From Arthrobacter sp. YN (GTDB taxonomy: Bacteria > Actinomycetota > Actinomycetes > Actinomycetales > Micrococcaceae), in assembly GCF_002224285.1 (NCBI RefSeq), contig NZ_CP022436.1:682001-746000 (forward strand): DNA of 64,000 nucleotides, read 5' to 3'. This document shows, piece after piece, positions 18,411-40,442 of this stretch (position 1 is its first letter; every line of letters begins with the position of its first letter). The notes under the pieces are model-generated. The model saw only the letters and a program-made list of their open reading frames with translations. It made no database searches and was not told the DNA's origin. The position numbers and the translations under genes are program-made.

Positions 18411-18460
18411 GGTCCAGGCGATGGAGCCTGGTCCTCCCTCAGTGAAAGGTGCAACCACTC

Positions 18461-21400: not shown

Positions 21401-21637
21401 GCCAACGGCAAGACGGGCCAGATTTCGCTGAACTGGAAGAACCTGGAACCAGGCTCCTACATCGGCCGCCTCACCTTCGCAGGCACCAGCGAGCCGAGCT
21501 TCGTCACCGTCCTGGTCAACCCCGGCGGCACCGTAGTGGTCCCGGACGAGGAGGACCCGAAGAAGGACAAGAAGGACAAGAAGAAGGGCGGCAAGATCCG
21601 CGCTGACGAGCCGACGCAGAGCAACAACGCCGGCTAA
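18461..21637 (+). CDS. secreted subtilisin-like serine protease (S8) with PA insert
   Basis: This protein of about 1058 residues has a signal peptide (SFVRSGGLRKAAALAVGLPL then SSMAMPAQA). An inhibitor-I9-like propeptide runs about 50-165. The catalytic domain carries Asp201 in GVIDTGYTP, His302 in DSHGTHTAS and Ser627 in GTSMASPHVAG. A PA domain is inserted between His and Ser (about 470-540, CAPGSLDPAKVAGKVVVCDRG). Fn3-like domains and a Lys-rich tail (KKDKKDKK) close the protein. It should be an extracellular broad protease. The start is taken at the GTG at 18461, which has GAAAGG upstream; an in-frame GTG at 18449 is the alternative. Two SSI-type inhibitor homologues are encoded just downstream on the opposite strand. 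Confidence 0.93.
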   Translation: MKSQGKSFVRSGGLRKAAALAVGLPLLLSSMAMPAQAAPTPETPGNVAGVAKKNLDPSAYKDGRYMVVLAEKPAATYDGGTAGLAPTKPEEGKKLDADSAEVKEYQQHLQTQQQDIATQENITIERDFTTAVNGFSANLTADQAINLAKDPKVLMVAPDTQYAPDYSTTDFLKLSGPNGTWATQYGGQDNAGKGTVVGVIDTGYTPSNPFFAGEPVGPLVGNPQVGVPYRTADGKIAMLKADGDTFVGECQPGTDTGADYDGSACNSKVLSTHYFADAFLETVPPENRASEEVISPVDVDSHGTHTASTAAGNANVDAVVDGRSFGTTSGIAPAAKLAVYKVCWEDTDPATGGCYGSASVDAIEQAILDGVDVLNYSISGSTTTTTDPVSLAFLSAASAGIFVATSAGNSGPTASTVNHGAPWLTTVAATSFSQELQGTVEFSDGSKFRGASIMNREVSGAGVVLSTNAASGEGNAALCAPGSLDPAKVAGKVVVCDRGVVDRTAKSAEVLRGGGVGMILVNLTDSSLDTDKHIIPTVHVNPPATQTIKDKVTANPAITVSLLNRDTTGLPAEAQPQIAGFSSRGPLLATDSDLLKPDVSAPGVAILAGVSPIGTGGDNFGFLSGTSMASPHVAGFGALILGKNPQWSPATVKSAMMTTAGPVKLANGAVNKDVFATGAGQVDPAKVLSPGLVYDATTEDYLKFIQGTGMDLGMEGLGTTAPRDMNVPSFALGNLAGKIEVTRTLTALTAGTYRASVNVPGVNVKVTPSVLTFGAPGEKKTFKVQFENKNAELGKFAMGSLSWQGANKTVTSPIAVRPQSVIADKALAFTGTGPNGSATINITSGTNLPVGLTIDGLSKADSSAVELVPGPFAGETNASNFVKKVTVGQGSALAKFSVISSNDAADFDMLVLTPSGQQLPAATASASETLSVPNPAPGDYYVFANLYASPNNQATKATVDAAVLGANQGNATVTPNPIRLANGKTGQISLNWKNLEPGSYIGRLTFAGTSEPSFVTVLVNPGGTVVVPDEEDPKKDKKDKKKGGKIRADEPTQSNNAG

Positions 21638-24551: not shown

Positions 24552-25487
24552 CTAATGCCCATGTTTTCGCGGAACATTGCCATTAACTGGCAATTCGACG
24601 TTGGGCGACGCGCCCAGAGTCACGGAGAAGTCGCGGGCAACCTTCGCCGCCAGCACTCCAGCCTGATCCAAGTGCCGTCCAAAACGCTGCTTGGGCGCGC
24701 TGACATTGAATGCTGCCACTACACGTTGCTTGAAGTCATAGACGGGTGCTGAGACGCCCACGACGCCCAGCTCGAATTCTTCGTCCACCACGGCGTAGCC
24801 TTGCCGGCGGATGAGATTGATCTCTGCGCGAAGGTCCTCGAATGTCTGGATCTTGGACTTGAGGTCCCCTGTTGACGGGCTTTGGCCCGCTTGAAGCGCC
24901 AAGGGCGAGAGTTCCTGGCGATCGGGCCGAACTCCCGCCTTGGCTTCGGCTGTGTGAGTGTCGTACCAATCCCTCAGCGCGGCGTCGTCCCAGTCGCTGA
25001 CCAGTACCCTCCCGGCGGACGTGCTCCACGCGTTAACGCTGACCCCTTCCCAGCCCAACGCCCTGTAGGTGTGGTTGGACATCTCGCTCTTGAGGGTCAG
25101 GACTGTGCCGCCGCGCAGCACGCAAAGGTGCGTGGTTTCGTGCGTCGCCGCTGACACGCGCTTGAGGTATTGCGCCGAAGCGCTGACCATCCGTGCCTCC
25201 GTGGTGCGGGCGGCCAAGGCATATAGTCCATGGCCGAGCGTGTACAAGAGGCTTTCCGGGTCCCTGCTGACCAGTCCTGCCTCGGCGAGGGTGGCCAAGG
25301 TTCGTGACACTTGCGCCTTGTCCCGGCCGGTGATCTCCGAGACCTTGCTGACGCCCAGGCCATTTCCGGCAACAGCCTCCGGTGACCCAAGGATTTCCAG
25401 CAACTCCAAGTCCCGGCGCAAGCCGGAGGAATTGCGCCGGGGTGCGGCTGCTTCTTTCACTGCGGTCTCCTTGATTGTTCTGGTCAC
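24552..25487 (-). CDS. IclR-family transcriptional regulator
   Basis: This protein of about 311 residues has an N-terminal winged helix (LELLEILGSP through VSKVSEITGRDKAQVSRTLATLAEAGLVSRD) and a C-terminal IclR effector domain with VNAWSTSAGRVLVSDW and GYAVVDEEFELGVVGVSAPV. It is divergent from the transporter and dehydrogenase run starting at 25630 and is its obvious regulator. The start is uncertain: the GTG at 25487 is preferred because an earlier GTG (25529) would overlap the palindrome that looks like its operator; neither has a strong Shine-Dalgarno. Confidence 0.88.
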   Translation of the reverse strand: MTRTIKETAVKEAAAPRRNSSGLRRDLELLEILGSPEAVAGNGLGVSKVSEITGRDKAQVSRTLATLAEAGLVSRDPESLLYTLGHGLYALAARTTEARMVSASAQYLKRVSAATHETTHLCVLRGGTVLTLKSEMSNHTYRALGWEGVSVNAWSTSAGRVLVSDWDDAALRDWYDTHTAEAKAGVRPDRQELSPLALQAGQSPSTGDLKSKIQTFEDLRAEINLIRRQGYAVVDEEFELGVVGVSAPVYDFKQRVVAAFNVSAPKQRFGRHLDQAGVLAAKVARDFSVTLGASPNVELPVNGNVPRKHGH

Positions 25488-25510
25488 GAGTCGATAGTAA
25501 CCATCTTTGC

Positions 25511-25524
25511 GTTGACATATCAAC
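25511..25524. promoter_or_regulatory. GTTGACATATCAAC palindrome, probable IclR operator
   Basis: GTTGA and TCAAC arms flank a four-base centre, and the site contains a TTGACA -35-like hexamer. It lies between the IclR gene and the divergent catabolic run, the usual place for an IclR-family binding site. Confidence 0.5.
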
Positions 25525-25629
25525 AACACTCATTGCGCAAAAGGGAATTCGACTTTTATGGTTGTGTCATGGCTCACGGAGATGTGGGCCCCGATCCTTA
25601 CCCCCAATGAAGTGAAAAGGAGGATCACG

Positions 25630-26295
25630 TTGAACGACACTTTCCTGTCCGATCTTGGACAGTTCCTCGTCAAGAGATCGGCAGACATTGCCGAATCCGC
25701 CGCCCAGCACCTGGCGGTTGTCTTGGTTTCCCTGCTGATAGCAACGGTCATCGGTGTGGGGGTCGGTGTCCTTGTATGGAACAGGCCCATCAGCCGCTCG
25801 ATGGCGATCGCCGGCGCCGGTGTTGGCCTGACCATCCCGTCGATGGCGCTCCTTGCACTCCTTATCCCCGTGCTGGGACTCGGCTGGACTCCCACCGTTG
25901 TGGGTCTTGCCTTCTACGCACTGCTCCCCATCATCCGGAACACGGTGGTGGGGCTGCGCGAAGTACCGCCGGCCGTCTCCGAATCCGCACTTGGCATGGG
26001 GATGGGCACAGTGAAGACGCTGTTTCGCGTGCAACTGCCCATGGCTTGGCCAGTGGTGCTCACCGGTGTCCGTGTTTCGGCCCAACTGTCCATGGGTATC
26101 GCAGCGATCGCTGCTTACGTGGGTGGTCCCGGGCTGGGCGAAATGATCTTCAAGGGCCTCTCGAGCTTGGGGTCCAAGAACGCCCTGAACTTCGCCGTCG
26201 TCGGAACCGTCGGTGTCATTGTCCTTGCCCTGCTGTTGGATGGCGCGTTCGTGCTCATCCGCCGCGTTACTACCTCAAGGGGACTTCGTGTCTGA
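25630..26295 (+). CDS. ABC transporter permease, OpuC/ProU (betaine-type) family
   Basis: This is a 221-residue inner-membrane subunit with five or six helices and the BPD-transport motif EVPPAVSESALGMGMGTVKTLF in the cytoplasmic coupling region. Members of this family usually import glycine betaine, choline or proline. The TTG at 25630 is chosen because AAAGGAGG lies seven bases upstream; the longer upstream opening lacks a site. The last codons overlap the ATPase start. It forms one importer with the next three genes. Confidence 0.88.
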   Translation: MNDTFLSDLGQFLVKRSADIAESAAQHLAVVLVSLLIATVIGVGVGVLVWNRPISRSMAIAGAGVGLTIPSMALLALLIPVLGLGWTPTVVGLAFYALLPIIRNTVVGLREVPPAVSESALGMGMGTVKTLFRVQLPMAWPVVLTGVRVSAQLSMGIAAIAAYVGGPGLGEMIFKGLSSLGSKNALNFAVVGTVGVIVLALLLDGAFVLIRRVTTSRGLRV

Positions 26296-27307
26296 AACAA
26301 CCACCCGCCCCGCCGCCGGCGCCCGGATCGTCCTCAAAGACGTCACCAAAACCTACCCCGGCCAGGTGATTCCCGCCGTCGAATCCTTCTCCATGGACAT
26401 CGCACCAGGCGAGCTGATCATGTTCGTGGGTCCTTCCGGTTGTGGCAAGACCACCACCATGAAGATGATCAACCGGATCATCGAACCGAGCTCGGGCTCC
26501 ATCACCATCGACGGTGAGGACGTCCTGTCCCTCAACCCCAACGAGCTCCGCCGCCGGATCGGCTACGTCATCCAGCAGATCGGCCTGTTCCCGCATATGA
26601 CCATCGCGGAGAACATCTCCGTGGTCCCCAAGCTCCTCGGCTGGGACAAGAAGCGCACGCAAAACCGCGTCGAAGAGCTGCTGGCCGTCGTCGAACTTGA
26701 TCCCAAGATGTTCGCGTCCCGCTACCCCCGCCAACTCTCCGGTGGGCAGCAGCAGCGCGTTGGGGTTGCGCGGGCCTTGGCCGCCGACCCGCCCGTGATG
26801 CTCATGGATGAGCCCTTCGGAGCCACAGACCCCATCACGCGCGAAAAGCTGCAGAGCGAATTCCTGCGCCTGCAGGAGAAGCTGAGCAAGACGATCGTCT
26901 TCGTCACCCACGATTTCGACGAAGCCGTGCGCCTCGGAGACCGGATCGCCGTGCTGTCCGAGCGCTCGCAGATCGAGCAGTTCGACACTCCGGCGAACAT
27001 CCTGGCCAACCCTGCCAATGACTACGTGTCGCAGTTCGTTGGGCACGGTGCCGCCCTCAAGCGCCTGGGGCTCATTCCTGTGGGCCACGCGACGCTGGGC
27101 CCGGCAGGTGGACGAAGCGCCCTGACCGTTGGTGTTGAAGACTCCCTCCGTGATGCCCTGGATGCCTTGGTGCTCTCGGGTGGCCTGCCCGTCGGCGTCG
27201 TGGACCAGAGCGGAAGGACCGTGGGCTCCATAGATATCGAACGAATCGCCGCTGTCCTGGGCGCCGAAATCCTGCCGCCGGCCCTTGCCGGGGGAGTGCG
27301 GCCATGA
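26288..27307 (+). CDS. ABC transporter ATPase, OpuCA/ProV family
   Basis: This 339-residue ATPase has Walker A (GPSGCGKTT), the Q-loop in YVIQQIGLFPHMT, the signature LSGGQQQRVGVARAL and Walker B (VMLMDEPFGA) with the switch His in VTHDFDEA. A C-terminal CBS-like segment (about 275-330, SLRDALDALVLSGGLPVGVV) is typical of OpuCA, where it senses ionic strength or c-di-AMP. The GTG at 26288 has AAGGGGAC just upstream and overlaps the permease stop by 8 bases; its stop overlaps the next ATG. Confidence 0.92.
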   Translation: MSETTTRPAAGARIVLKDVTKTYPGQVIPAVESFSMDIAPGELIMFVGPSGCGKTTTMKMINRIIEPSSGSITIDGEDVLSLNPNELRRRIGYVIQQIGLFPHMTIAENISVVPKLLGWDKKRTQNRVEELLAVVELDPKMFASRYPRQLSGGQQQRVGVARALAADPPVMLMDEPFGATDPITREKLQSEFLRLQEKLSKTIVFVTHDFDEAVRLGDRIAVLSERSQIEQFDTPANILANPANDYVSQFVGHGAALKRLGLIPVGHATLGPAGGRSALTVGVEDSLRDALDALVLSGGLPVGVVDQSGRTVGSIDIERIAAVLGAEILPPALAGGVRP

Positions 27308-28089
27308 CTGCGCAGGCAACGCGGGACCTGGCAACGTCCTTCGGCACGGCCTCCAACCGCAAGGGAAAGTACTTCTCCTTCAAGCGGTTCGGAACGCCAC
27401 TGATCATCATCGTGGCGCTGCTGGCACTGTTCCTCTGGATCTCCTCGCTCACCCTCGATTCGATCGAGCTGCGCACCCTCAACTGGGACTACCTTGCTGA
27501 TCGGACCAGGGAACACCTTCTGCTGACGGTCACAGCATCCGCGATTGTGTCCCTGATTGCCATCCCGGCCGGCATTGCACTGAGCCGCGTGCATTCCAAG
27601 GCAGTTCACGCAGTGGTCTTCGGGATTGCCAACATAGGGCAGGCAACTCCGGCCATTGGCCTGGTGATTCTGCTGGCCATTGTGTGGAAGACAGGCTTTG
27701 AGGTGGCGCTGGTGGGCCTGGTGGCGTACTCGGTCCTGCCTGTACTGCGGAACACCTTGGTGGGACTCCAACAGGTTGATTCCAGCCTGACGGAGGCTGC
27801 CAAGGGTATGGGCATGCGTCCGCTGGAAGTGCTCACCCGGATCGAACTCCCCTTGGCCGTTCCGGTGATCGTTGCTGGTCTGCGGACGGCCCTGGTCTTC
27901 TGTGTCGGCGTCGCCACAGTGGCCACCTTCATCAACGCAGGCGGCCTGGGCGACATGATCGTCAACGGCTTGAAGCTCCAGCGCTGGCCCGTCCTCATCA
28001 CCGGAGCCGTTGTCGTCTCCTGCATTGCCCTCACCATCGACTGGCTGGCAGGCCTCGCTGAAGATCTGCTCAAGCCCAAAGGCATCTGA
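27304..28089 (+). CDS. second ABC permease of the OpuC-type importer
   Basis: This is a 261-residue membrane protein with the coupling motif QVDSSLTEAAKGMGMRPLEVL, homologous to the permease two genes upstream but longer at the N-terminus. OpuB/OpuC systems of Gram-positives also have two different permeases, so the set is complete. The ATG overlaps the ATPase stop (ATGA). Confidence 0.9.
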   Translation: MTAQATRDLATSFGTASNRKGKYFSFKRFGTPLIIIVALLALFLWISSLTLDSIELRTLNWDYLADRTREHLLLTVTASAIVSLIAIPAGIALSRVHSKAVHAVVFGIANIGQATPAIGLVILLAIVWKTGFEVALVGLVAYSVLPVLRNTLVGLQQVDSSLTEAAKGMGMRPLEVLTRIELPLAVPVIVAGLRTALVFCVGVATVATFINAGGLGDMIVNGLKLQRWPVLITGAVVVSCIALTIDWLAGLAEDLLKPKGI

Positions 28090-28119
28090 CTTTTTCCTAC
28101 TTCCCCAAGGACAAACACC

Positions 28120-29055
28120 ATGAAGAAACCTGCAATGACCCTGCTGGCCACCGGCGTGGCCGTGGCCCTGAGCCTCACGGCATGCGGCGGCTCAGCTTCC
28201 TCCAGTTCAAGCGGAGCCGGAAGCAACGAACTCGAAGGCCTCACCGGCGTTTTCGGCGCCAAGGACTTCTCCGAGCAGTTCATCCTCTCCCACATCACCA
28301 GCCAGGTCCTGAACGCCCACGGCGCAGACACCACTACCAACACCAGCGTGGTGGGCTCCGCCAACGTCCGCACGGCCTTCGAGACCGGCCAATTCGCCGG
28401 CTACTGGGAGTACACCGGGACGTCCTGGATCACGTACAACAAGCAGACCACTCCCATCAAGGACAAAGCGGAGATGTTCAACGCCGTCAAGGACGCCGAT
28501 GCCAAGAAGGGCATCGCCTGGCTGGACCCTGCACCCCTTAACAACACCTATGCCTTCGCCATTCGCGAGGACAAAGCCAAGGAACTCGGCATCAAGAGCC
28601 TCTCGGACGTGGCCAAGCTTCCAGCCAGCGAGCAGACATTCTGCGTGGAAAGTGAGTTCTCAACCCGTGACGACGGCTGGCCGGGTCTGAGCAAGGAATA
28701 CGGTTTGAGCCCGGACGCCAAGGTTTCCATGCTGGACACCGGTGTCATCTACACCGCAACGCAGAAGGGCCAGGACTGTAACTTCGGCGAGGTCTTCGAA
28801 ACGGATGGCCGCATTCCCGCGCTGAAGCTGCAGGTCATGGAGGACGACAAGAACTTTTTCCCGATCTACCAGGGCGCCCTCACCATCAAAGCCGACATCC
28901 TCGCCAAGTACCCGGCCATCGCGGACATCATGGCCAAGGTTTCGCCAAAGCTCACCACCGAGGTCATGCAGCAACTGAACGCGAAGGCTGATGTTGATGG
29001 CGAAGACCCGGAAGACATTGCCAAGGAATGGCTCGAATCCGAAGGACTGATCTGA
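28120..29055 (+). CDS. ABC substrate-binding lipoprotein, OpuAC/OpuCC family
   Basis: This 311-residue lipoprotein has a signal peptide ending in LTACGG and a Ser-rich linker. It is homologous to quaternary-amine binding proteins: GVFGAKDFSEQFILSHITSQ corresponds to the GSKNFTEQ start of that fold, and FAGYWEYTGTSW to the YxxYTGT hinge segment. The Tyr- and Trp-rich cage of betaine binders is not obvious outside the YWEYTGTSW segment, so the ligand may not be a betaine. AAGGA precedes the ATG. Confidence 0.88.
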   Translation: MKKPAMTLLATGVAVALSLTACGGSASSSSSGAGSNELEGLTGVFGAKDFSEQFILSHITSQVLNAHGADTTTNTSVVGSANVRTAFETGQFAGYWEYTGTSWITYNKQTTPIKDKAEMFNAVKDADAKKGIAWLDPAPLNNTYAFAIREDKAKELGIKSLSDVAKLPASEQTFCVESEFSTRDDGWPGLSKEYGLSPDAKVSMLDTGVIYTATQKGQDCNFGEVFETDGRIPALKLQVMEDDKNFFPIYQGALTIKADILAKYPAIADIMAKVSPKLTTEVMQQLNAKADVDGEDPEDIAKEWLESEGLI

Positions 29056-29057
29056 GA

Positions 29058-29567
29058 ATGACTGAACAGATCCAGATCGGTGAGTCCTTCATCGGGAACG
29101 GCGTCAACGCAGCGCACGTGAACACTGTCCTCGGACATCGGAACGGCCCCGCCGGAACCGCCTGGGCCACGGCCTTGGGATCACCGAGTGCCGGCCACGT
29201 TCCCTTCGTGGCTGTCCTGCGGCCCTCACTCCCGGTGAAGCCTCTAACGCTCTTTGTTACCAAAGCTGCCCCGGCAAATGACCAGCACGGCAACCTCATC
29301 TGGGGCGCAGCGCAGGCTGGAATCGCCGCGGGCGTGGCAGATGCTGTAGCCGACGGCATCCTCACTGATCAACAGGCCGATTCGCACGCACTGATCGCCG
29401 CGGTGTGGGTGAACCCCAACGCCGACGACGACGACGCCGTCTACCGCAATAACCGTGAGTCGGTCCGGACTGCTTTGGAGAACGGGGCCAAGAACCTCCC
29501 GTCCACCGCAGAAGTGATCGAGGCACGCAACTCCCCGTCCAATCCCTTCTTCACTCCGCGAGGCTGA
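29058..29567 (+). CDS. formaldehyde-activating enzyme (Fae) homologue
   Basis: This 169-residue protein is homologous along its whole length to Fae, which condenses formaldehyde with tetrahydromethanopterin. Shared features: IGESFIGNGVNAAHVNTVLG with the His that corresponds to the catalytic His17, SAGHVPFVAVLRPSLPVKPLTLFVTK, and the Gln-containing helix WGAAQAGIAAGVADAVADGI. It begins two bases after the binding-protein stop, inside a run with an importer and dehydrogenases. Arthrobacter relatives are not known to me for a tetrahydromethanopterin pathway, and none of its other genes is in this window, so the true substrate may be another cofactor or a different carbonyl adduct. The family call is firm; the reaction is open. 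Confidence 0.85.
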   Translation: MTEQIQIGESFIGNGVNAAHVNTVLGHRNGPAGTAWATALGSPSAGHVPFVAVLRPSLPVKPLTLFVTKAAPANDQHGNLIWGAAQAGIAAGVADAVADGILTDQQADSHALIAAVWVNPNADDDDAVYRNNRESVRTALENGAKNLPSTAEVIEARNSPSNPFFTPRG

Positions 29568-29572
29568 CAGCA

Positions 29573-30676
29573 ATGAAGATCACCGCAATCCGGCTGACCC
29601 GCATGGTCCTGCCGCTGGACCCGCCGTTCAACGCCGCCTGGGATCCTGAACCCCGCACCTCCTTCCCGGCAACACTGGTGGAGGTGGAAACCGACGAAGG
29701 CATCACCGGCGTAGGCTCCGGCGACACTATGGACGGTTTCGAAGCCTACGAACACCTGTTCATCGGGACCGACCCCATGGCCATCCTCAACCAGGTCCGC
29801 CGGATCGAGACCATCAACTTCCACGGCGGCCGGTACTGGCCCCTCGAAGCGGCCCTCTGGGACATCATCGGCAAAGTTGCCGGACTCCCGGTAGCCACAC
29901 TCTTCGGCGGAGCACAGGATCGTCTGGTGGCCTATGCCTCCTCCGGCGAATTGAAGGCCCCCGCGGCCCGGGCTGAGTCAGCGCTTGCTGCCAAGGACCG
30001 TGGCTTCAAGGCCATGAAGATCCGTATTTCCCGCGACCACCTGGAAGAAGGCGTGGAGTCCGTCCGCGCTGCCAGGGAAGCCGTGGGCAAGGACTTCGAC
30101 CTGATGGTGGACCTTAACCAGATGTGGCGCATGAGCGGGGACATCGAACCAGCGTTGGAACTCGCCAAGGTCCACCGCCTCGCGGCGCAGTTGGCTGAAC
30201 TGGATGTCCGCTGGCTCGAGGAGCCACTTCCGCAGGCCGACGTCAAGGGCGCACAGCGTGTCCGCGAACAGACCGGCATACAGGTCTCAGGCGGTGAAAT
30301 GGTCCGCAGCATGCCGGAAATGATGGCCCTCATCGAAGCCGACGCTTACGACATCTACCAGCCTGACGTCGCCTTGGCCGTGGGCATGTACCGCGCCCGG
30401 CAGGTGGCCGAAACGGCAAACCTCAAGCACCGCTTCTTCACACCGCACACGTGGAGCAACGGCTTGGGCTTGCTGGCTAACCTGCACGTGGCCGCAGGCG
30501 TGGACGCAGGACCATACTTGGAATTCCCCTATGACCCGCCGGGCTGGACCCCGGAGCGCCGCGACTTCTTCATGGAGCCGCTGGACATCGACGACGACGG
30601 TGCGCTCCGCGTGCCCGACCTGCCGGGCCTGGGTGCAGTCATCGATTACGACGCCGTCAAGAAGTACTCGGTCTAA
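29573..30676 (+). CDS. enolase-superfamily enzyme (mandelate racemase/acid sugar dehydratase type)
   Basis: This 367-residue protein has the MR/MLE layout. A capping domain is followed by the barrel with catalytic Lys149 in a KIR (KxR) motif, metal ligands Asp180 (MVDLNQMW), Glu216 (WLEEPLPQ) and Glu242 (SGGE), and the His292-Asp265 dyad (TPHTWSNG and YQPDV). This arrangement abstracts a proton alpha to a carboxylate, so the substrate is a carboxylic acid, often a hydroxy or sugar acid that is dehydrated or epimerised. Five bases separate it from the Fae homologue. Confidence 0.9.
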   Translation: MKITAIRLTRMVLPLDPPFNAAWDPEPRTSFPATLVEVETDEGITGVGSGDTMDGFEAYEHLFIGTDPMAILNQVRRIETINFHGGRYWPLEAALWDIIGKVAGLPVATLFGGAQDRLVAYASSGELKAPAARAESALAAKDRGFKAMKIRISRDHLEEGVESVRAAREAVGKDFDLMVDLNQMWRMSGDIEPALELAKVHRLAAQLAELDVRWLEEPLPQADVKGAQRVREQTGIQVSGGEMVRSMPEMMALIEADAYDIYQPDVALAVGMYRARQVAETANLKHRFFTPHTWSNGLGLLANLHVAAGVDAGPYLEFPYDPPGWTPERRDFFMEPLDIDDDGALRVPDLPGLGAVIDYDAVKKYSV

Positions 30677-30687
30677 GGAACACTGCC

Positions 30688-32205
30688 ATGGCAACAACCA
30701 AGAACGACTGGATCCAAGGGGCGGCAGTCCAGCAGCCGGCCACGGGACTGTATATCGACGGCGGTTTCCGCGCCGCACACAGCGAGGCAACGTTTCCCAC
30801 GGTCTCTCCGAGGGACGGTTCCGTCACGGCCCACGTAGCGGCAGCGGGGGAACAGGACGTAGACGACGCCGTCCAGGCAGCTCATCGTGCTTTCGAAAGC
30901 GGAGTATGGTCGCGAACGGACCGACGCCACCGGCAAGCCGTCCTGACCCGACTGTCGGACCTCATCCTTGAAAACCTCGAGGAACTCGCACTCCTGGAGT
31001 CCACGGATGCCGGCCACCCGATCAGCGACGCGCTCGCCGTCGATGTCCCCAGCTGTGCACGGACCTTCCGCTGGTACGCGGAGGCCTTGGACAAGGTCTA
31101 CGACGACGTCGCACCCACCCCACGCAACGCCCTAGCAGTCATTTCCCGTGAACCGCTCGGCGTGATCGGCGCCGTCGTGCCGTGGAACTATCCACTGATC
31201 ATCACGGCCTGGAAGGTGGCTCCTGCGCTCGCGGCCGGGAACTCCGTGGTCCTCAAGCCTTCGGAACAGACCAGCCTGAGCGCGTTGCGCCTGGCCGAAC
31301 TGGCCACTGAGGCGGGCGTGCCGGATGGCGTATTCAACGTTGTCCCCGGCCTCGGTCACGTTGCCGGGGCTGCCTTGGGGCGGCATGATCTCGTGGACAA
31401 GATCACCTTCACGGGCTCACCGGAGGTTGGCCGGTACTTCCAGCGCTACGCCTCCGAATCGAATGGCAAGCAGGTGGCGCTGGAGCTCGGCGGAAAGTCG
31501 CCGCAGGTGGTTCTGCACGACGTCGGAGACATCGCCGCGTGCGCGTCGGCCGTGGCCTGGGGGATCTTCTACAACGCCGGGCAGACCTGCCACGGAGGTT
31601 CACGGCTCCTCGTGGACGAACGTGTCCACGACGAATTGATCGAAGAAGTCATCAAGGTGGGGCGGTCGTTGCAGCTTGGCGACCCGCTGGATCCTGCCAC
31701 CCAGATCGGCGCGATCATCGATGACCGTCAGCTTGAGAGCATCCTCGGCTACTACGCCATCGCAGATGGCGAGGGCATCGCAGTGGCCAGCGGCGGCACC
31801 CAGGTCCACCCTGCCGGCGTTGAAAATGGCTACTACCTGGAACCCACGGTCCTGGACCGGGTCAATAACGCCGGCCGCATCGGCCAGGAAGAGATCTTCG
31901 GCCCGGTCCTGGCAGTGAGCACATTCCGTGGCGCCGCCGAGGGCATCCGGATGGCTAACGAATCCAAGTACGGGCTGGCCGCCAGCGTGTGGACGCAGGA
32001 CGTCACCAAGGCGCACACCGCTGCCCGAGAGCTGCGCGCCGGCACCGTGTGGGTGAACACTTTCGACGTCGCGGACATCATCACGCCCTTTGGCGGATTC
32101 AAGGAATCGGGGTTCGGCAGGGACCGTTCCCTGCACGCACTGGACGCCTACTCCGCACTGAAAACAACTTGGATCAACTTGGGCGACGCCGCCCTGGACG
32201 ACTGA
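30688..32205 (+). CDS. NAD(P)-dependent aldehyde dehydrogenase
   Basis: This 505-residue ALDH has the catalytic Cys in NAGQTCHGGSR, the general-base Glu in VALELGGKSPQVV and the nucleotide-binding segment FTGSPEVGRYF. The closest pattern is the gamma-aminobutyraldehyde/betaine-aldehyde/PuuC class (EPLGVIGAVVPWNYPL). It would oxidise an aldehyde made in the pathway to the acid. AAGGAAC lies upstream of the ATG. A second, distinct ALDH is encoded three genes later. Confidence 0.92.
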   Translation: MATTKNDWIQGAAVQQPATGLYIDGGFRAAHSEATFPTVSPRDGSVTAHVAAAGEQDVDDAVQAAHRAFESGVWSRTDRRHRQAVLTRLSDLILENLEELALLESTDAGHPISDALAVDVPSCARTFRWYAEALDKVYDDVAPTPRNALAVISREPLGVIGAVVPWNYPLIITAWKVAPALAAGNSVVLKPSEQTSLSALRLAELATEAGVPDGVFNVVPGLGHVAGAALGRHDLVDKITFTGSPEVGRYFQRYASESNGKQVALELGGKSPQVVLHDVGDIAACASAVAWGIFYNAGQTCHGGSRLLVDERVHDELIEEVIKVGRSLQLGDPLDPATQIGAIIDDRQLESILGYYAIADGEGIAVASGGTQVHPAGVENGYYLEPTVLDRVNNAGRIGQEEIFGPVLAVSTFRGAAEGIRMANESKYGLAASVWTQDVTKAHTAARELRAGTVWVNTFDVADIITPFGGFKESGFGRDRSLHALDAYSALKTTWINLGDAALDD

Positions 32206-32232
32206 ACCACCCAGCCTGAATTGAGACTCGAT

Positions 32233-33219
32233 ATGACTGCAACAACGCACGCTTCCGCTACGGAAACACAACCTTTCACGCCCGGCACCGTCCGCATCGG
32301 ATTCATCGGCCTCGGCAACATGGGCTCGGGCATGACGCGCAACCTCCAAGCCGCAGGCTTCCACTTGGTGGTGAACGATGTCCGCAAGGAATCCGCCGCC
32401 GGACTCCTCGCTAACGGAGCCGAATGGGCGGAGGACGCCGCGGCTGTAGCCGCTGGATCCGACGTCGTCATCACCATGCTCCCCACGCCCAAGCACGTGG
32501 AAACAGTCGCCATGGGACCCGGCGGCATCCTTGCCGGACTGCCCGACGGCGGCACGTGGGTGGACATGTCCACCTCGGTTCCGGAGGTCGCTAACAGGGT
32601 CCGCGAAGCGGGCTCGGTCCGCGGAATCCGCGTCCTGGATGCACCCGTCAGCGGCATGTCCGTGGGCGCCGCGAACGGAATGCTGCAGATCTTCATTGGC
32701 GGCGACGCGGCCGACGTCCACCGTCTTCGTCCCGTGTTCGAAGCGATGGGTGATTCCGAACGGATCCTGCACGTGGGCGGCCACGGTGCCGGCTACGCGG
32801 TGAAGCTTATGATCAACCAGTTGTGGTTCTCGCATCTGGTGGCCACCGCAGAGGTCCTGAGCACTGGCGTCAAGGCAGGAGTGGACCTGGAAGTCCTGCG
32901 GCAGGCACTCATCGCAAGCCCGGCGAACTCCAACTTTGTGGAGAACGACGTCCTGTCCATCCTCAACCACGGCGACTACGACGAAGGCTTCGCGATCGCG
33001 TTGGCCTGCAAGGACCTTGGCTTGTCCATCGACCTGGCCCGCTCGGTGGGTGTGCCCATGGAGTTGTCTGGTCTGGTGGAGCAGCTCTACCGCAGGGCCA
33101 AGGCGCTCTACGGCGACAAAGCCGGGGAGATGACCCCCGTGAAACTTTACGAAGACGCCATTGGAGTGCAGTTGCGGACGCCCGTGCAGGCCGCCGGCAT
33201 CGCAGCAGAAGGAGCTTGA
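32233..33219 (+). CDS. NAD(P)-dependent beta-hydroxyacid dehydrogenase
   Basis: This 328-residue member of the 3-hydroxyisobutyrate/tartronate-semialdehyde reductase family has a Rossmann start IGFIGLGNMGSGMTRNLQAAG, the substrate motif DAPVSGMSVGA and the catalytic Lys in GHGAGYAVKLMINQL. It interconverts a beta-hydroxyacid and the semialdehyde. The ATG at 32233 is chosen; a TTG at 32221 in frame is possible. Presence with an enolase-superfamily acid dehydratase and an aldehyde dehydrogenase suggests a short acid intermediate. Confidence 0.9.
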   Translation: MTATTHASATETQPFTPGTVRIGFIGLGNMGSGMTRNLQAAGFHLVVNDVRKESAAGLLANGAEWAEDAAAVAAGSDVVITMLPTPKHVETVAMGPGGILAGLPDGGTWVDMSTSVPEVANRVREAGSVRGIRVLDAPVSGMSVGAANGMLQIFIGGDAADVHRLRPVFEAMGDSERILHVGGHGAGYAVKLMINQLWFSHLVATAEVLSTGVKAGVDLEVLRQALIASPANSNFVENDVLSILNHGDYDEGFAIALACKDLGLSIDLARSVGVPMELSGLVEQLYRRAKALYGDKAGEMTPVKLYEDAIGVQLRTPVQAAGIAAEGA

Positions 33220-33224
33220 CCATC

Positions 33225-34412
33225 ATGCAGACACGTATGCAGATCCACGCCGAGCTGGCCTCCACGGAGCTGACTCTCGATCCGAAGCCCGCCGCTTACT
33301 TCGGCCGTGGGAAGGTGGCAGAGGTAGGCGGGATTGTCGCTGACCTCGGAGCCAAGTCGGCACTGATTGTCACTGACCCGTTCCTTGCCACCACGGACGT
33401 TGTGGCGGCCGTCAGGACCTCCTTGGAAGCCGCCGGGCTCGCCGTCAGCGTGTTTGATGGCGTGACCCCGAACCCCACCACCACGTGCGTCGACGCCGGG
33501 TCGGACCAGGCCGCCGCCTCCGGAGTTGATGTCCTGGTCCCTGTGGGCGGAGGATCGTCCATGGACGCAGCGAAAGGAATTTCGCTGGGTGCCGTGAATC
33601 CGGCCAGGGGAGCGGGGCTGGACTACAGCAACCACTTCGAGAACCCGGCGCTGCCCATTGTTGCCGTGCCCACCACCGCCGGCACCGGTGCCGAGGTCAA
33701 CGCCTTCGGTGTGGTTACGGACGTTGATGCGCACCGGAAGTTCTATGTAGGCCACGAATCGGCACTGCCCAAGGCAGCTGTGCTTGACCCCGAACTGACC
33801 CTTGGGCTTCCGCCGAAGGCCACCGCGGCCACCGGCATGGACGCGCTCACGCACGCCGTGGAGTCCTACTCATCCATCCGGCAGAACCCGTACTCCGACG
33901 GCATTGCCCTCCAAGTGGTCGCCATGGTTGCCGAGTTCCTGCCGCGCGCTGTGGCCGACGGCTCCGACATCGAAGCCCGATCACAGCTCCTCCTGGCCTC
34001 GCACATTGCGGGTGTTGGCTTCTCCCACACCGGCCTGGGCCTGGTGCACGCGATCGCCCATCCGCTGGGCGGCCGCTTCAACATCCCGCATGGCCTTGCG
34101 CTGTGCCTGGTGATTGAGGATGTCCTCCGCCTCAACCTCCGCAACCGGCTGGACCGGACCGCGCGGCTCGCCTTCGCACTCGGGGTGGGAGACACCGCGG
34201 CGACTGTCGAGCAGAACGCGGACGCCGCCGTCGAGGCTGTTGCCACGCTGGCACGGGATGTGGGCATGACAGCCCGGCTGACCGACTTCGGTGTGACGGA
34301 AGCCGACCTCGACTCCCTGGTGGAGGACACCCTGGCGGATTCGGTCATCAACAACACCCCTGTGCCGCCCACCCCCGTCGAAATCCGCACGATCCTCGAG
34401 AAAGCGCTCTAA
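33225..34412 (+). CDS. iron-containing alcohol dehydrogenase
   Basis: This 395-residue group III (Fe-dependent) alcohol dehydrogenase has the NAD-binding PVGGGSSMDAAKG, TAGTGAEVNAFGVVTD, DALTHAVESY and metal-ligand His residues in HIAGVGFSHTGLGLVHAIAHPLGG and FNIPHG. The ATG at 33225 is preceded by AAGGAGC. It would oxidise a primary or hydroxy-acid-type alcohol to the aldehyde used by the ALDH that follows directly. Confidence 0.92.
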   Translation: MQTRMQIHAELASTELTLDPKPAAYFGRGKVAEVGGIVADLGAKSALIVTDPFLATTDVVAAVRTSLEAAGLAVSVFDGVTPNPTTTCVDAGSDQAAASGVDVLVPVGGGSSMDAAKGISLGAVNPARGAGLDYSNHFENPALPIVAVPTTAGTGAEVNAFGVVTDVDAHRKFYVGHESALPKAAVLDPELTLGLPPKATAATGMDALTHAVESYSSIRQNPYSDGIALQVVAMVAEFLPRAVADGSDIEARSQLLLASHIAGVGFSHTGLGLVHAIAHPLGGRFNIPHGLALCLVIEDVLRLNLRNRLDRTARLAFALGVGDTAATVEQNADAAVEAVATLARDVGMTARLTDFGVTEADLDSLVEDTLADSVINNTPVPPTPVEIRTILEKAL

Positions 34413-35909
34413 GTGGAAAACACCCTGACTTTTGATTCGGCTCTGACACGCGCCGAGCGGGCGTTCGTTGAGTCCCTGCCCACGCAGCTTTACATCGACG
34501 GCCAGTGGACAGACGCGTCCGACGGCGGGACATCGGCTGTGGAGGACCCTTCCACTGGCGCTGTCCTCACCAAGATCGCTGACGCGTCTCCCGCTGACGG
34601 CGATCGGGCCTTGGCCGCGGCGGCCCGAGTCCAAGAGTCCTGGGCGGCGACCCCGCCGCGCGAGCGTGGCGAAATCCTGCGCCGCGCCTTCGAGCTCGTT
34701 ACTGCACGGGCCGAGGATTTCGCCCTTGTGATGACCCTGGAGATGGGCAAGCCGGTGGCCGAATCCCGCGGCGAAGTTGCCTATGGGGCCGAGTTCCTGC
34801 GCTGGTTCTCTGAGGAAGCCGTGCGGGTTTCGGGACGCTACTCCACGGCACCGGACGGCAAGTCCAGGCTGCTCGTGACCAAGCGGCCCGTGGGTCCGTG
34901 CCTGTTCATCACGCCATGGAACTTCCCCTTGGCCATGGCCACGCGCAAGATCGCCCCGGCTATCGCCGCCGGCTGCACCATGGTCCTCAAACCGGCCAAC
35001 CTGACCCCGCTGACGGCCTTGCTGTTCACGCAGGTCCTGCAGGAAGCAGGCCTTCCTGCGGGTGTCCTGAACGTCATTCCCACTACCCGCCCGGGGGACG
35101 TCACGGGGCCGCTCATCCGGGACAGCCGCCTGCGCAAGCTCTCGTTCACGGGATCCACCGGCGTGGGGCAGCAGCTCATCGCGGACTCGGCGCACCAAGT
35201 ACTGCGGACCTCCATGGAACTGGGCGGCAACGCGCCGTTCCTGGTCTTTGAGGACGCGGACCTTGAGGCAGCGATTGACGGCGCCATGGTGGCCAAGCTC
35301 CGGAACATGGGGGAGGCCTGCACAGCGGCCAACCGGTTCATCGTGCACGAATCCTTGGCTTCGGAGTTCAGCCGTCGGTTGGCCGAACGGATGTCTTCTT
35401 TGGTGCTGGGGCGCGGCTCCGCTGAAGGCACCAGCATCGGGCCGCTCATTGATGCCAAGAGCCGGGCGAAGGTGGACGAACTGGTCAGGGATGCCGTTGA
35501 TGGTGGCGCGACTGTCCTGACCGGCGGTTCCATGGCCGACGGGCGGGGCCATTTCTATCCGCCCACGGTCCTGACGAACGTGGCCTCTTCGGCCCGGATC
35601 CTCCGTGAAGAGGTCTTCGGTCCCGTAGCGCCCGTGGTCAGCTTCTCCACCGAGGACGAAGCGATCGCCTTGGCGAACGACACCGAGTACGGCCTGGTGG
35701 CCTACGCCTACACGAGGGACCTCAACCGCGGTATCCGTCTGTTCGAAAAGGTGGATGTAGGTATGTTCGGGCTCAACACCGGCATCGTGTCCAACCCCGC
35801 GGCGCCGTTTGGCGGCGTGAAGCAATCCGGTCTGGGCCGCGAGGGTGGAACCGAGGGCATCGAGGAGTTCCTGGAAACCCGCTACATCGGCATTGCGGAC
35901 CCCTCCTGA
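34413..35909 (+). CDS. aldehyde dehydrogenase, succinate-semialdehyde (GabD-like) class
   Basis: This 498-residue ALDH starts at a GTG immediately after the previous stop. The catalytic Cys is in GEACTAANRFIVH and the Glu in MELGGNAPFLVFEDADL. ETLAMGKP-like TLEMGKPVAESRGEVAYGAEFLRWFSEEAVR is the usual GabD signature (here near 110-140). It oxidises a semialdehyde to a dicarboxylate or similar acid. TGATG overlap with the next gene. Confidence 0.9.
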   Translation: MENTLTFDSALTRAERAFVESLPTQLYIDGQWTDASDGGTSAVEDPSTGAVLTKIADASPADGDRALAAAARVQESWAATPPRERGEILRRAFELVTARAEDFALVMTLEMGKPVAESRGEVAYGAEFLRWFSEEAVRVSGRYSTAPDGKSRLLVTKRPVGPCLFITPWNFPLAMATRKIAPAIAAGCTMVLKPANLTPLTALLFTQVLQEAGLPAGVLNVIPTTRPGDVTGPLIRDSRLRKLSFTGSTGVGQQLIADSAHQVLRTSMELGGNAPFLVFEDADLEAAIDGAMVAKLRNMGEACTAANRFIVHESLASEFSRRLAERMSSLVLGRGSAEGTSIGPLIDAKSRAKVDELVRDAVDGGATVLTGGSMADGRGHFYPPTVLTNVASSARILREEVFGPVAPVVSFSTEDEAIALANDTEYGLVAYAYTRDLNRGIRLFEKVDVGMFGLNTGIVSNPAAPFGGVKQSGLGREGGTEGIEEFLETRYIGIADPS

Positions 35910-36589
35910 TGCTTCGTGTGCTCGTCACGGGCGGCACCAGCGGAATCGGTGCCGCCCTGGTAAGGGAGTCCCTGCGGGCAGGCCACTCCGTCTTCACCAC
36001 CGGGCGTCATCCAGGGAAGCTCGCGGCGTTCGTCGAATCGTGCTCCAGTCTGGGTCATGTTGCTGGCATCGTGGCGGATGCCGGTGACTGGGAGCAAACC
36101 CGTGATGCCGTGTCCGAAGCGCACGAGTTCCTTGGCGGGATCGACGTTGCGGTGGCAAACGCCGGGTTCTCCGCGGCTGGCGACCTGGCCGGCGGCGACC
36201 CTGACCGTTGGCGTGACATGGTGCTCACCAACGTTTATGGCCCGGCGATCCTGGCCAAGGCCGCGCTGCCGCAACTCCTGGAGAACCGTGGCCACATGGT
36301 CTTGATCGGCAGTACAGCGGGGAGGAAGGTCTACCCGGGCAATCTCTACACAGCCACCAAATGGGCCGTGACCGGCTACGCAGAGTCGCTCCGGCAGCAA
36401 CTCGTGGGGACCGGAGTGCGGGTGCTGCACATTGCGCCGGGCCACGTGGATACGCCGCTGTGGAAGGAGGCTCCGGATGCCTTCATTCCGCCCGAGTCCG
36501 TGGCTGCGACCATGCTGTGGGCACTGACCCAGCCACCCGGCGTCGACGTTTCAGAAGTCATGGTCCGGGCAACCGGCCAGGCGTTCTAG
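35909..36589 (+). CDS. short-chain dehydrogenase/reductase
   Basis: This 226-residue SDR has the TGGTSGIG cofactor loop at 7-14, NAG near 84, the catalytic Ser in LIGSTAG and YTATK (YxxxK) further on. Arg/His-containing sequence after the first strand (TTGRHPGKL) suggests NADP preference. It is the last gene of the IclR-linked run, coupled by overlap to the upstream ALDH. The substrate is unknown. Confidence 0.9.
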   Translation: MLRVLVTGGTSGIGAALVRESLRAGHSVFTTGRHPGKLAAFVESCSSLGHVAGIVADAGDWEQTRDAVSEAHEFLGGIDVAVANAGFSAAGDLAGGDPDRWRDMVLTNVYGPAILAKAALPQLLENRGHMVLIGSTAGRKVYPGNLYTATKWAVTGYAESLRQQLVGTGVRVLHIAPGHVDTPLWKEAPDAFIPPESVAATMLWALTQPPGVDVSEVMVRATGQAF

Positions 36590-37946: not shown

Positions 37947-40442
37947 TTACCGGAGTTCGATGTCCAATGATTGGAAGTGATCGGCCGCGTGGCGACCCAC
38001 CAGCAGGCGGAACGTGCCCTGCTCAAACTGCCAGCCGCCGTCGTAGTGTGCAAACGCCTTGGCGGGGATATGTATTTCCACGCTTTCGGTTCCGTTCGCG
38101 GCGAGGTGCGTTCCGGCGTAGCCGGCAAGCCAGCGGACGGGACGTTCGACGGCGGAATCGGCGCGGGCCAGATAGACCTGGACCACTTCCCGTCCGGTGC
38201 GCGTGCCCGTGTTCTTGACGGGCACGTGCACCACGACGTCGTTCCCGGCGGTCACTGCCTGCGGGGCGTGGGCTGTGCCGAGCTCGAACGTTGTGTACCC
38301 GAGGCCATAACCGAACGGGAGGGCCGGCGCTGCGCGGCCGGCGGCTTCCTGCTTGAGCCAGGCGCGGTAGCCGATGTGGATTCCTTCGGCGTAGACCACC
38401 TTGCCCTCAACGGGCGTGGTGCTCAACACCGGGACGTCTTCCAGCGCGGCGGGCCAGGTGGTGGGCAGGCGTCCGCCAGGCTCTTCGATGCCCAGCAGGA
38501 TGTCTGCGATGGCGCTGCCGAACTCCTGGCCGCCGAACCAGCCCAGCAGGACCGCATCCACGGTGTCCAGCCATGGCATGAGCACGGGTGAGCCTGAGTT
38601 CACCACCACTACTGTGCGCGGGTTGGCAGCTGCCACGGCCTCCACCAACTGGTTCTGGTAGCCGGGGAGGTCCAGGTCCTTGCGGTCGAAGCCTTCGGAC
38701 TCAATGGCGGCGTTGGTGCCCACCACAACCACAGCGACGTCGGAAGTCCGGGCAGCTTCCACCGCGGCGTCAATCTCGGCTTGCGGGTCCGTGACCACGG
38801 TTTCCTCGCCCAGCAGGATGGCCGTGAACGGGATGACCTGTTGTTTGGGCAGCTGGTACTCGGCCTCGATTCGGACAGTCTGCCCGGCCGTGGTCTCCAG
38901 GGCGTGGACGGTCTTGGGGGGATCGAAGAGGGCGGCGCCCAGGACGTCGGTGTCGTCCTTGATCTCGCCGTTGAAGACTTCCGACCCGTCCAAGGCAAAG
39001 CGGATCTGCCCAACGGTCCCTACGCCCAGGTGGTGGACGCCTGCTGTTTCGGCTGTCCAGTCCGCTTCCATGCGGATGGAGGCGGCGCCGTCGGGAATTC
39101 CTACGCCGAACCAGATCAGGTGCGAGGCCAGGCGGTCTTCTCCGGAGATTTCCGTGCCGTCGTCGGCGAGGAAGGTCACGCGGATTCCGGGGACGTTGGA
39201 GACCGGGTTGTGGAGTGAGGTGCGGGGGAAGGCCTGGATGCCTTCTGCCACCTTGGCGCCGCGGGCGTAGGTGACTGTGACGTCGTCGGGCAGTGCTTTC
39301 TGCAGGCCTTCCAGCGGCGAGACGGTGTACTTGGGCATCACGGTGGCGCTGCCGCCGCCTTGGGTGCGGGCTTCGTCGGCGTTGTGGCCGATCACCGCGA
39401 CGCTGCTGAGCGCCTTGGCATCAAGCGGAAGCAGGCCCTTGTTGCGGACCAGCACGGCGCCGCGGACGGCGACTTCACGCGCGACGGCGGCCCCGTCCAG
39501 TGACGCAGGGAGCTGGGTGACTGCAGCTTCGAATCCTTCCAAAGAGCCGACGCGGGCTGCAAGGCGCAGGATCCGGGTGGCCTTTTCCAGGATCGCCTCC
39601 CGGCTGACGCGGCCATCGTTGACGGCGGCGAGGAGCTTGGGTCCCCAGTGGCCTACCGGGCCGGGCATTTCAAGGTCCTGGTGGGCGTTGGCGGCGTCCA
39701 CTGAGCGGACACCGGTCCAGTCGGAGACGACGACGCCGTCGAAGCCCCACTCGGTGGACAGCGGCGTTTCAAGGAGCGTGTTCTCGCTGGCGGTGGTGCC
39801 GTTGATGGAGTTGTACGAGCTCATGACCAGCCAGGCGCGGGCTTCGGTGATGGCGTCCTCGAAGGCTGCCAGATAGAGCTCCCGCAGGGGTCGTTCGTCG
39901 ACCACGGAATCGGCGGTGAAACGCTCGGTTTCGGCCTCGTTGGCCAAGTAGTGCTTGGGCGTGGCGCCGACTCCCATGGACTGGACGCCGGCCACGTACC
40001 CGGCGGCCATGGTGGCGGTGAGCCGTGGGTCCTCGCTCATGCATTCGAAGTGGCGGCCGCCCAGCGGGGAGCGGTGCAGGTTGATGGTGGGGCCCAGAAC
40101 GGCGTGGACGCCTTTACGGCGGGCCTCCTGGCCCAGGACCTGCCCGTACCGGCGCGCGGTTTCGACGCTCCAGGTCGCGGACAGAGCGGACGACGACGGC
40201 AAGGAGACGGAGTCGTGACGCTCGTCGAAGTCTTCACCCCGGACGCCTGCCGGTCCGTCGGACATGACCACACGGGACAGCCCGATCTCCGGGATGGCGT
40301 GCGTGGACCACACGTCTGCGCCCGTCAGCAGTTGCACCTGCTGCTCAAGCGTGAGGCTCCGGGCGAGTTCCTGGATCTTGGTTTCCGCATCCTGCGCTCC
40401 TGCTGCTGGTGCTGTGACGGCGGCCGAAAGTGTGGGATTCAT
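37947..40442 (-). CDS. beta-glucosidase, glycoside hydrolase family 3
   Basis: This 831-residue GH3 enzyme has the substrate-binding Asp in VMSDGPAGVRG (62), KHYLANEAE (163-171) and the nucleophile Asp241 in VVVSDWTG. The second domain is interrupted by a PA14-like module (about 400-520, VRVTFLADDGTEI), which in other GH3 enzymes sets specificity for oligosaccharides, and an Fn3-like domain ends the protein. There is no signal peptide, so it acts in the cytosol on imported glucosides. Its start abuts the stop of the upstream MFS gene, forming an operon divergent from a TetR regulator. Confidence 0.93.
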   Translation of the reverse strand: MNPTLSAAVTAPAAGAQDAETKIQELARSLTLEQQVQLLTGADVWSTHAIPEIGLSRVVMSDGPAGVRGEDFDERHDSVSLPSSSALSATWSVETARRYGQVLGQEARRKGVHAVLGPTINLHRSPLGGRHFECMSEDPRLTATMAAGYVAGVQSMGVGATPKHYLANEAETERFTADSVVDERPLRELYLAAFEDAITEARAWLVMSSYNSINGTTASENTLLETPLSTEWGFDGVVVSDWTGVRSVDAANAHQDLEMPGPVGHWGPKLLAAVNDGRVSREAILEKATRILRLAARVGSLEGFEAAVTQLPASLDGAAVAREVAVRGAVLVRNKGLLPLDAKALSSVAVIGHNADEARTQGGGSATVMPKYTVSPLEGLQKALPDDVTVTYARGAKVAEGIQAFPRTSLHNPVSNVPGIRVTFLADDGTEISGEDRLASHLIWFGVGIPDGAASIRMEADWTAETAGVHHLGVGTVGQIRFALDGSEVFNGEIKDDTDVLGAALFDPPKTVHALETTAGQTVRIEAEYQLPKQQVIPFTAILLGEETVVTDPQAEIDAAVEAARTSDVAVVVVGTNAAIESEGFDRKDLDLPGYQNQLVEAVAAANPRTVVVVNSGSPVLMPWLDTVDAVLLGWFGGQEFGSAIADILLGIEEPGGRLPTTWPAALEDVPVLSTTPVEGKVVYAEGIHIGYRAWLKQEAAGRAAPALPFGYGLGYTTFELGTAHAPQAVTAGNDVVVHVPVKNTGTRTGREVVQVYLARADSAVERPVRWLAGYAGTHLAANGTESVEIHIPAKAFAHYDGGWQFEQGTFRLLVGRHAADHFQSLDIELR

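Follow-up and report, generated by a model that had tools for sequence, protein, structure and literature searches.

The element described here is a probable catabolic operon of Arthrobacter sp. YN (RefSeq assembly GCF_002224285.1), which occupies positions 24552–36589 of the 64,000-nucleotide stretch analysed (contig NZ_CP022436.1, positions 682,001–746,000 of the forward strand; hereafter the window). Pfam and NCBIfam assignments place a minus-strand IclR-family regulator next to eleven packed plus-strand genes, twelve genes in total, for which the following features and predicted roles are given:

24552..25529, minus strand: divergent IclR-family regulator (longest open reading frame; PF01614/PF09339), adjoining the operon in both main layouts.
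25630..26295, plus strand: OpuC-type permease 1 (PF00528; TTG start after AAGGAGG; longest open reading frame from 25558).
26288..27307, plus strand: importer ATPase (GTG start; TIGR01186 proV 331.7 bits, above the cut-off of 326.6).
27304..28089, plus strand: OpuC-type permease 2 (PF00528).
28120..29055, plus strand: OpuAC substrate-binding lipoprotein (PF04069, 6e-57; aromatic cage Y98, Y144, F226, Y250).
29058..29567, plus strand: Fae-family protein of a separate clade by its residues and tree position (PF08714/TIGR03126; ATG start), proposed trimethylamine lyase.
29573..30676, plus strand: mandelate-racemase-type enolase-superfamily enzyme (ENO; PF13378/PF02746; catalytic residues in 27/27 sequences), proposed to beta-eliminate an ether oxygen.
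30688..32205, plus strand: aldehyde dehydrogenase 1 (ALDH1; PF00171), resembling PuuC and betaine-aldehyde dehydrogenase (BADH) below the NCBIfam cut-offs, proposed to oxidise a glyceraldehyde ether.
32221..33219, plus strand: beta-hydroxyacid dehydrogenase (HADH; PF03446/PF14833; alternative ATG at 32233), proposed to convert trimethylhomoserine to its semialdehyde.
33225..34412, plus strand: iron alcohol dehydrogenase (Fe-ADH; PF00465/PF25137; ATG start), lactaldehyde-reductase-like below cut-off, proposed to oxidise the free glycerol CH2OH.
34413..35909, plus strand: aldehyde dehydrogenase 2 (ALDH2), resembling succinate-semialdehyde dehydrogenase (SSADH; TIGR01780 541.5 bits; SSA-binding residues), proposed fumarate-semialdehyde dehydrogenase.
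35909..36589, plus strand: short-chain dehydrogenase/reductase (SDR; PF00106), probably accessory, by its distribution confined to Arthrobacter/Pseudarthrobacter loci.

The starts of permease 1 (TTG 25630), the ATPase (GTG 26288), Fae (ATG 29058) and Fe-ADH (ATG 33225) were picked by eye. Successive intergenic gaps within the operon, with provisional starts for some genes, are -2, -4, 30, 2, 5, 11, 15, -4, 0 and -1, and the spacing from the IclR gene to the operon varies with the starts chosen. An earlier preliminary description of this DNA had reported an IclR regulator followed by eleven tightly packed same-strand genes; all were recovered at the same coordinates and with the same family assignments, the operon genes either overlapping slightly or being separated by up to 30 bases. 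A scan of the operon for promoters and terminators gave no signal above shuffled sequences.

Searching a genome collection with Fae as the only query gathered 45 loci (locus counts throughout include repeat entries per species). The order importer-Fae-ENO-ALDH1-HADH-FeADH-ALDH2, which is that of the window apart from the terminal SDR, recurs, within the DNA retrieved, in 17 of them (type A), with hosts in Arthrobacter, Pseudarthrobacter, Subtercola, Actinomadura, Sphaerisporangium, Wenjunlia, Nonomuraea and Kibdelosporangium as well as metagenome-assembled genomes. The gene order that the preliminary description wished to see looked for elsewhere thus recurs beyond this genome more than chance would allow, and its view of the genes as one catabolic unit gains from their conservation across loci. 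A second layout (type B, 23/45 loci) consists of importer-Fae-HADH-ALDH2 together with a trio formed by a KduD-like SDR, an AGPS-like flavoenzyme and an FGGY kinase; some type B loci stop short of the last genes, and in five (L006, L008–L011) HADH, ALDH2 and the SDR lie across the IclR gene on its other side. The remaining five loci (L012, L020, L036, L043 and L045) differ from both types. The SDR that ends the operon in the window occupies this position in no loci but the Arthrobacter/Pseudarthrobacter loci L001, L002, L007 and L044 (L003 ends earlier), and is regarded as accessory because of this limited range. The genome is Paenarthrobacter-like, the Fae of the window being 96% identical to a Fae of Paenarthrobacter sp. 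UW852. The operon is patchy in distribution: Fae occurs in 2/297 genomes of the order and 17/396 of the phylum (own genome included in both counts), and the seven further genomes listed for the genus have none. No description of this gene set was found among the literature matches listed, with most subscription journals outside their scope, and within that scope the statement that no known pathway has this set holds.

When loci from a phylum survey (16), plasmids (five) and an order survey (one) are added, 67 Fae-clade loci are available outside the window. The module next to Fae is ENO in 26, at least one trio gene in 24 and a PhyH-like 2-oxoglutarate (2OG) dioxygenase in 7, with none in 10, and no locus carries two of these modules (0/67). 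In a tree built from 38 of 74 Fae sequences in the alignment, the ENO labels require 6 changes and the AGPS labels 3, with the starred branches forcing 2 each; as the labels are interleaved, the modules seem to have been swapped around a common core.

All three modules make sense as cutters of a glycerol ether, their reactions being predicted from family membership and residues. The ENO catalytic set (catalytic Lys in K149/R151, the acidic metal ligands D180, E216 and E242, and the His-Asp dyad D265/H292) is invariant in 27/27 aligned sequences, the window included, which bears out the complete active site previously ascribed to this enzyme. The carboxylate substrate predicted for it earlier is likewise supported. 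The set is common to the acid-sugar dehydratases of the mandelate racemase subgroup, from which ENO differs in an invariant loop of its own (F19, A22, W23, D24 and R28) and in its proposed leaving group, an ether rather than hydroxide. Its best NCBIfam models are the talarate/galactarate, arabinonate and galactonate dehydratases, with scores far below every equivalog cut-off. The type B flavoenzyme was first matched as GlcD-like (126 bits), and a PDB search with one copy gave alkyl-DHAP synthase as best match (170 bits, E 7.5e-49; best non-AGPS match 97.7). Alkyl-DHAP synthase (AGPS) forms the ether linkage in ether lipids. Compared with it, the type B enzyme, which is not in the window, is shorter and would work in the ether-cleaving direction, while carrying the HHH motif; HHHG(I/V)G is present in 19/23 type B copies, the remaining four (L006, L008–L010) reaching the locus end before that part, and the HHH motif also in 4/4 copies outside Fae loci. 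A glycerol-3-phosphate-responsive antiterminator lies by the trio in an Escherichia coli stretch, two Enterococcus species and Streptomyces clavuligerus, and none is annotated there in Vibrio and Priestia. In the 2OG-dioxygenase-like partner the HxD...H and Arg positions are invariant in 6/6 aligned copies (L077 excluded); it has no NCBIfam match and weak PDB matches only (E 0.03 or worse). Among actinobacterial genomes whose Fae locus holds the core only, an AGPS-like gene is found elsewhere in Leucobacter (60%), S. clavuligerus (70%) and Microbacterium H83 (74%), against a base rate of 3/297 genomes of the order for a close AGPS; the Microbacterium H83 locus seems to be interrupted by a contig end and does not count as an independent case.

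The nature of the imported compound is suggested by the transporter. The OpuC/ProU-type importer is complete, with two permeases, an ATPase and an OpuAC binding protein, and an importer of this type is found in 43/67 Fae-clade loci. In the binding protein, Y98 (45/45 sequences), Y144 (44/45), F226 (45/45) and Y250 (45/45) form what we take to be the quaternary-amine cage, in line with the importer type first proposed for this operon; Y144, F226 and Y250 align with aromatic residues of a sensor fragment. Outside Fae loci, the trio adjoins an OpuC importer in two Enterococcus species, a BCCT betaine-type transporter in Vibrio, and genes for proteins resembling MttB and dimethylglycine dehydrogenase (DMGDH) in two genomes (families scanned in one), while the transporters near it in E. 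coli and Priestia belong to the major facilitator superfamily (MFS). Two stretches (L093:7692-16919 and L094:47-9300) hold the trio by MttB-like methyltransferase and DMGDH-like genes and a Dpp-type importer, perhaps as a demethylating variant. Enterococcus megaplasmids (L086:2264-13710 and L102:1505-14565) carry the trio with an OpuC-type importer, electron-transfer-flavoprotein genes EtfAB and a glycerol-3-phosphate-responsive antiterminator, and no Fae was found on these two megaplasmids.

The second half of the substrate is suggested by the gene that some related clusters carry instead of Fae. Burkholderiaceae and one Ensifer have a core of Fae, an aldo-keto reductase (AKR) and an SSADH-like ALDH. 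Another Ensifer strain, Vibrio and Priestia have, where their relatives have Fae and the SSADH-like ALDH, a lyase and a different ALDH, together with an AKR or a zinc alcohol dehydrogenase (Zn-ADH). By family score the lyases of Priestia and Vibrio are aspartase-like and the best model for their ALDHs is BADH, all below cut-off, and the Ensifer lyase and ALDH are assigned by identity to the Vibrio pair (41% and 69%) rather than by a family scan. These lyases of the aspartase/fumarase superfamily belong to another family than Fae, yet occupy its place beside similar AKRs or the same importer: the Dpp importers of the Ensifer Fae and lyase clusters are orthologous (75.6, 74.9, 75.8 and 73.4% identical), and the Caballeronia AKR, which comes from a Fae cluster, shares 74% identity with the AKR of the Ensifer lyase cluster and 73% with that of the Vibrio one. 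The lyase loop GSSxxPGKVNP is present in 3/3. An aspartase-like lyase in the place of Fae points to amine elimination, and a fumarate-making lyase to a four-carbon acid from which an amine is expelled; combined with the importer cage, such an acid suggests trimethylhomoserine after oxidation. As Fae is accompanied by an SSADH-like ALDH and the lyase by a BADH-like one, it is as if the amine left before aldehyde oxidation in the former clusters and, probably, after it in the latter. Separately, in an 852 aa coding sequence of Peribacillus (L103:9998-12556) an aspartase-like lyase is fused with a BCCT transporter.

Two other accounts of the operon explain part of these observations. Catabolism of a tetritol or an acid sugar, in which erythritol or threitol would be oxidised to a tetronate, dehydrated by the enolase-superfamily enzyme to 2-oxo-4-hydroxybutyrate and oxidised further in the direction of oxaloacetate, the OpuC importer having been co-opted for a neutral solute, draws on the dehydratase models that score best with ENO, albeit far below their cut-offs. 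It is quite improbable, given the conserved importer cage and the BCCT, MttB-like and lyase associations, and it leaves the AGPS-like enzyme without a role. Scarcely better placed is catabolism of homocholine or beta-alanine betaine, whose pathway matches the gene classes (Fe-ADH and ALDH1 would yield the acid, trimethylamine would be eliminated, and HADH and ALDH2 would act by way of 3-hydroxypropionate and malonate semialdehyde) and suits the cage; the swap of ENO for an AGPS-like/FGGY-kinase trio, the glycerol-3-phosphate antiterminators by the trio elsewhere and the aspartase-like lyase in place of Fae are all unexplained by it.

The Fae of the window is a recognisable member of its family (PF08714, 5.6e-51; TIGR03126 150.7 bits against a cut-off of 118) and shares with the Fae of tetrahydromethanopterin (H4MPT)-dependent methylotrophs and archaea the conserved His, Lys, Gln, Thr and Gly positions. 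Its clade nevertheless departs from them at positions fixed in the reference proteins. Asn replaces Asp two residues past the conserved His (HxN for HxD) in 63/64 near and 4/4 far clade members, the Asp being present in 5/6 reference Fae, of which the sixth (L108) is aberrant; Trp replaces Phe at W81 (61/64 near, 4/4 far) and at W116 (61/64 near, 4/4 far, with one reference Fae likewise W), Asn replaces His at N161 (64/64 near, 2/4 far), and further changes are fixed in the clade. In the tree five of the six reference Fae form one group (100/99) and L108 is a long branch. The H4MPT cyclohydrolase MCH (PF02289) has no match in the own genome, with a positive control in 3 genomes and MCH as the one pathway gene searched for, and therefore no H4MPT route was found. 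The proposal that Fae works as annotated, or close to it, and captures formaldehyde from an N-methyl or methoxy group during betaine catabolism is consistent with the TIGR03126 score, with substrates that are probably N-methylated and with Zn-ADHs that lie beside Fae in some loci and have formaldehyde-dehydrogenase models as second-best match. It has to account for the missing MCH, the clade-wide changes, operon genes among which Pfam and NCBIfam recognise no demethylase, and clusters in which the place of Fae is taken by a lyase rather than by a formaldehyde enzyme, and is considered unlikely; the formaldehyde or one-carbon signal originally read from Fae is accordingly not supported. A second, distant Fae (30%) is encoded in Caballeronia grimmiae (L065:60-593), adjoining toxic-anion-resistance and TerD genes.

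These features are best accommodated by a glycerol ether of a betaine. The substrate is probably a quaternary-amine glycerol ether, and there is a reasonable, if weaker, case for a four-carbon half that ends as fumarate. Whether Fae is the amine (trimethylamine) lyase we regard as evenly balanced, and much the same can be said of the substrate being exactly glyceryl-trimethylhomoserine. The head group of diacylglyceryl-trimethylhomoserine (DGTS) is a glycerol ether of N,N,N-trimethylhomoserine, and import and catabolism of the deacylated head group, glyceryl-O-(N,N,N-trimethylhomoserine), is the favoured reading, a function that, on the sequence comparisons above, the operon may or may not have with about equal likelihood. 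In the proposed pathway, the OpuC-type importer would hold the trimethylammonium group in its aromatic cage, and Fe-ADH and ALDH1 would turn the free glycerol CH2OH into a carboxylate, giving a 3-O-alkylglycerate. ENO would then remove the C2 proton and eject the C3 ether oxygen to yield pyruvate and trimethylhomoserine, whose CH2OH would be converted to the semialdehyde by HADH; Fae, acting as a trimethylamine lyase, would form fumarate semialdehyde, and the SSADH-like ALDH2 fumarate, for net products of pyruvate, fumarate and trimethylamine. In type B relatives the kinase, the SDR (oxidation at C2) and the AGPS-like flavoenzyme would convert the glycerol ether to dihydroxyacetone phosphate and the alcohol, and in other relatives the 2OG dioxygenase would split the ether by hydroxylation. 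With glyceryl-trimethylhomoserine every type A enzyme would have a step, and the terminal SDR alone would be without a role. Of the original expectation of stepwise oxidation of a short hydroxy acid, the oxidation is retained and the acid is refined to two implied fragments, one from glycerol and the other a four-carbon amino-acid betaine. The broader proposition of a dedicated betaine-lipid head-group pathway with three swappable ether cutters (enolase-type beta-elimination, reverse AGPS and 2OG dioxygenase), in which Fae is the founding trimethylamine lyase on the Fae fold and exchangeable with aspartase-like lyases, is offered tentatively, as somewhat less likely to hold than to fail. BtaA (PF11899) was not found in the own genome, and there is therefore no sign of turnover of own DGTS.

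ALDH2 retains R178, R297 and S460, which bind succinate semialdehyde (SSA), and the catalytic C303 in 49/49 sequences, although it falls below the NCBIfam SSADH cut-off (TIGR01780 541.5 against 646.35); the reference residues (Arg, Arg, Ser) are those given in PMC2823781, where the text prints R283 and our alignment gives 282. The nearest PDB entries to HADH are 2-hydroxymethylglutarate dehydrogenase (162.9 bits) and tartronate semialdehyde reductase (162.5 bits). This pair of matches would suit a different betaine-lipid head group with the same architecture, that of diacylglyceryl-hydroxymethyl-trimethyl-beta-alanine (DGTA), an ether of 2-hydroxymethyl-3-trimethylammoniopropanoate, on which HADH would act as on a true beta-hydroxyacid, and the glycerol-ether and amine evidence applies to it equally. 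It is nonetheless a minor candidate: the succinate-semialdehyde triad is kept throughout the ALDH2 set, the lyase of other clusters is aspartase-like, the product would be methylenemalonate-like with no operon gene for such a product, and DGTA is chiefly marine. Three further candidates were rejected. Choline to betaine oxidation has no demethylation or trimethylamine step and leaves Fae and ENO unused; (2,3-dihydroxypropyl)trimethylammonium suits the ether modules and leaves the HADH/AKR, Fae/lyase and ALDH core jobless; and for nicotine or trigonelline routes no flavin monooxygenase was recognised.

Several observations weigh against the glyceryl-trimethylhomoserine pathway. With regard to the lyase, we know of no lyase activity in Fae; the AKRs of the two Ensifer clusters (Fae and lyase) are only 46% identical, and in Priestia the corresponding genes encode a Zn-ADH and MFS transporters. 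The Peribacillus ALDH lies ~6 kb from the lyase-BCCT coding sequence in a stretch with no annotated AKR, and a lyase match on a Shinella plasmid has no AKR, ALDH or ether genes nearby. Eight of the 17 lyase-search records listed are annotated as aspartate ammonia-lyase, and the own genome has four other aspartase/fumarase-superfamily genes (35–37%) that could conceivably perform the elimination. In loci L068, L069 and L071 the cluster is merged with operon genes for gamma-aminobutyrate (GABA), which could by itself explain an SSADH there, and the HADH matches in PDB fail to tell gamma- from beta-hydroxyacids. Importers of Fae loci differ (OpuC, Dpp, MFS, SSS and GABA permease), and one substrate for all loci is therefore not required. 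With regard to the ether, 10 Fae loci (of 67) have no ether module at hand, and of 12 genomes or records searched for AGPS (Burkholderiaceae and Ensifer by plasmid only), 7 had none and 2 had 30–33% matches only, two of the nine non-positive records (L045 and L081) carrying ENO. In E. coli and Enterococcus the trio has neither Fae nor a lyase in the stretch read and is accompanied by Etf-like genes, a setting that would fit an oxidation, possibly by YgcU-type enzymes, rather than redox-neutral ether cleavage. Finally, one locus (L095:5374-9938) has ENO (61%) with an OpuC importer and IclR and without Fae, with one TGA in the matched stretch.

Betaine lipids are phosphorus-free membrane lipids that take the place of phospholipids in many green algae, lichens, mosses, ferns, some fungi and phosphate-starved bacteria. 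If the proposed pathway is correct, the operon and its relatives would provide candidate bacterial enzymes for DGTS ether cleavage and an environmental source of trimethylamine, and many actinomycetotal proteins annotated as formaldehyde-activating enzyme would do something else. A 2023 review describes the ether bond of DGTS as one for which no cleaving enzymes had yet been identified (PMC9892843).

A role would also be suggested for E. coli ygcU, ygcW and ygcE and their relatives. The E. coli ygcW-ygcU-ygcE genes, found with the glycerol-3-phosphate-responsive antiterminator ygcP, resemble the type B trio (ygcU 61%, ygcW 63% and ygcE 43% identical to L031); the trio is not in the window, which has ENO instead, and the E. 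coli stretch that was read holds no Fae, HADH or OpuC importer. No function for ygcW, ygcU or ygcE was found among the literature matches listed, two of the genes being named in a promoter catalogue. The stretch from ygcE to ygcO of E. coli KE47 (L084:4858-14312) holds these relatives of the trio, for which a glycerol-ether substrate is a guess. Near the operon and outside the unit, the window encodes a large subtilase-like secreted protein, identified by eye (18449-21637), and a GH3 beta-glucosidase with an MFS transporter (37947-41723).

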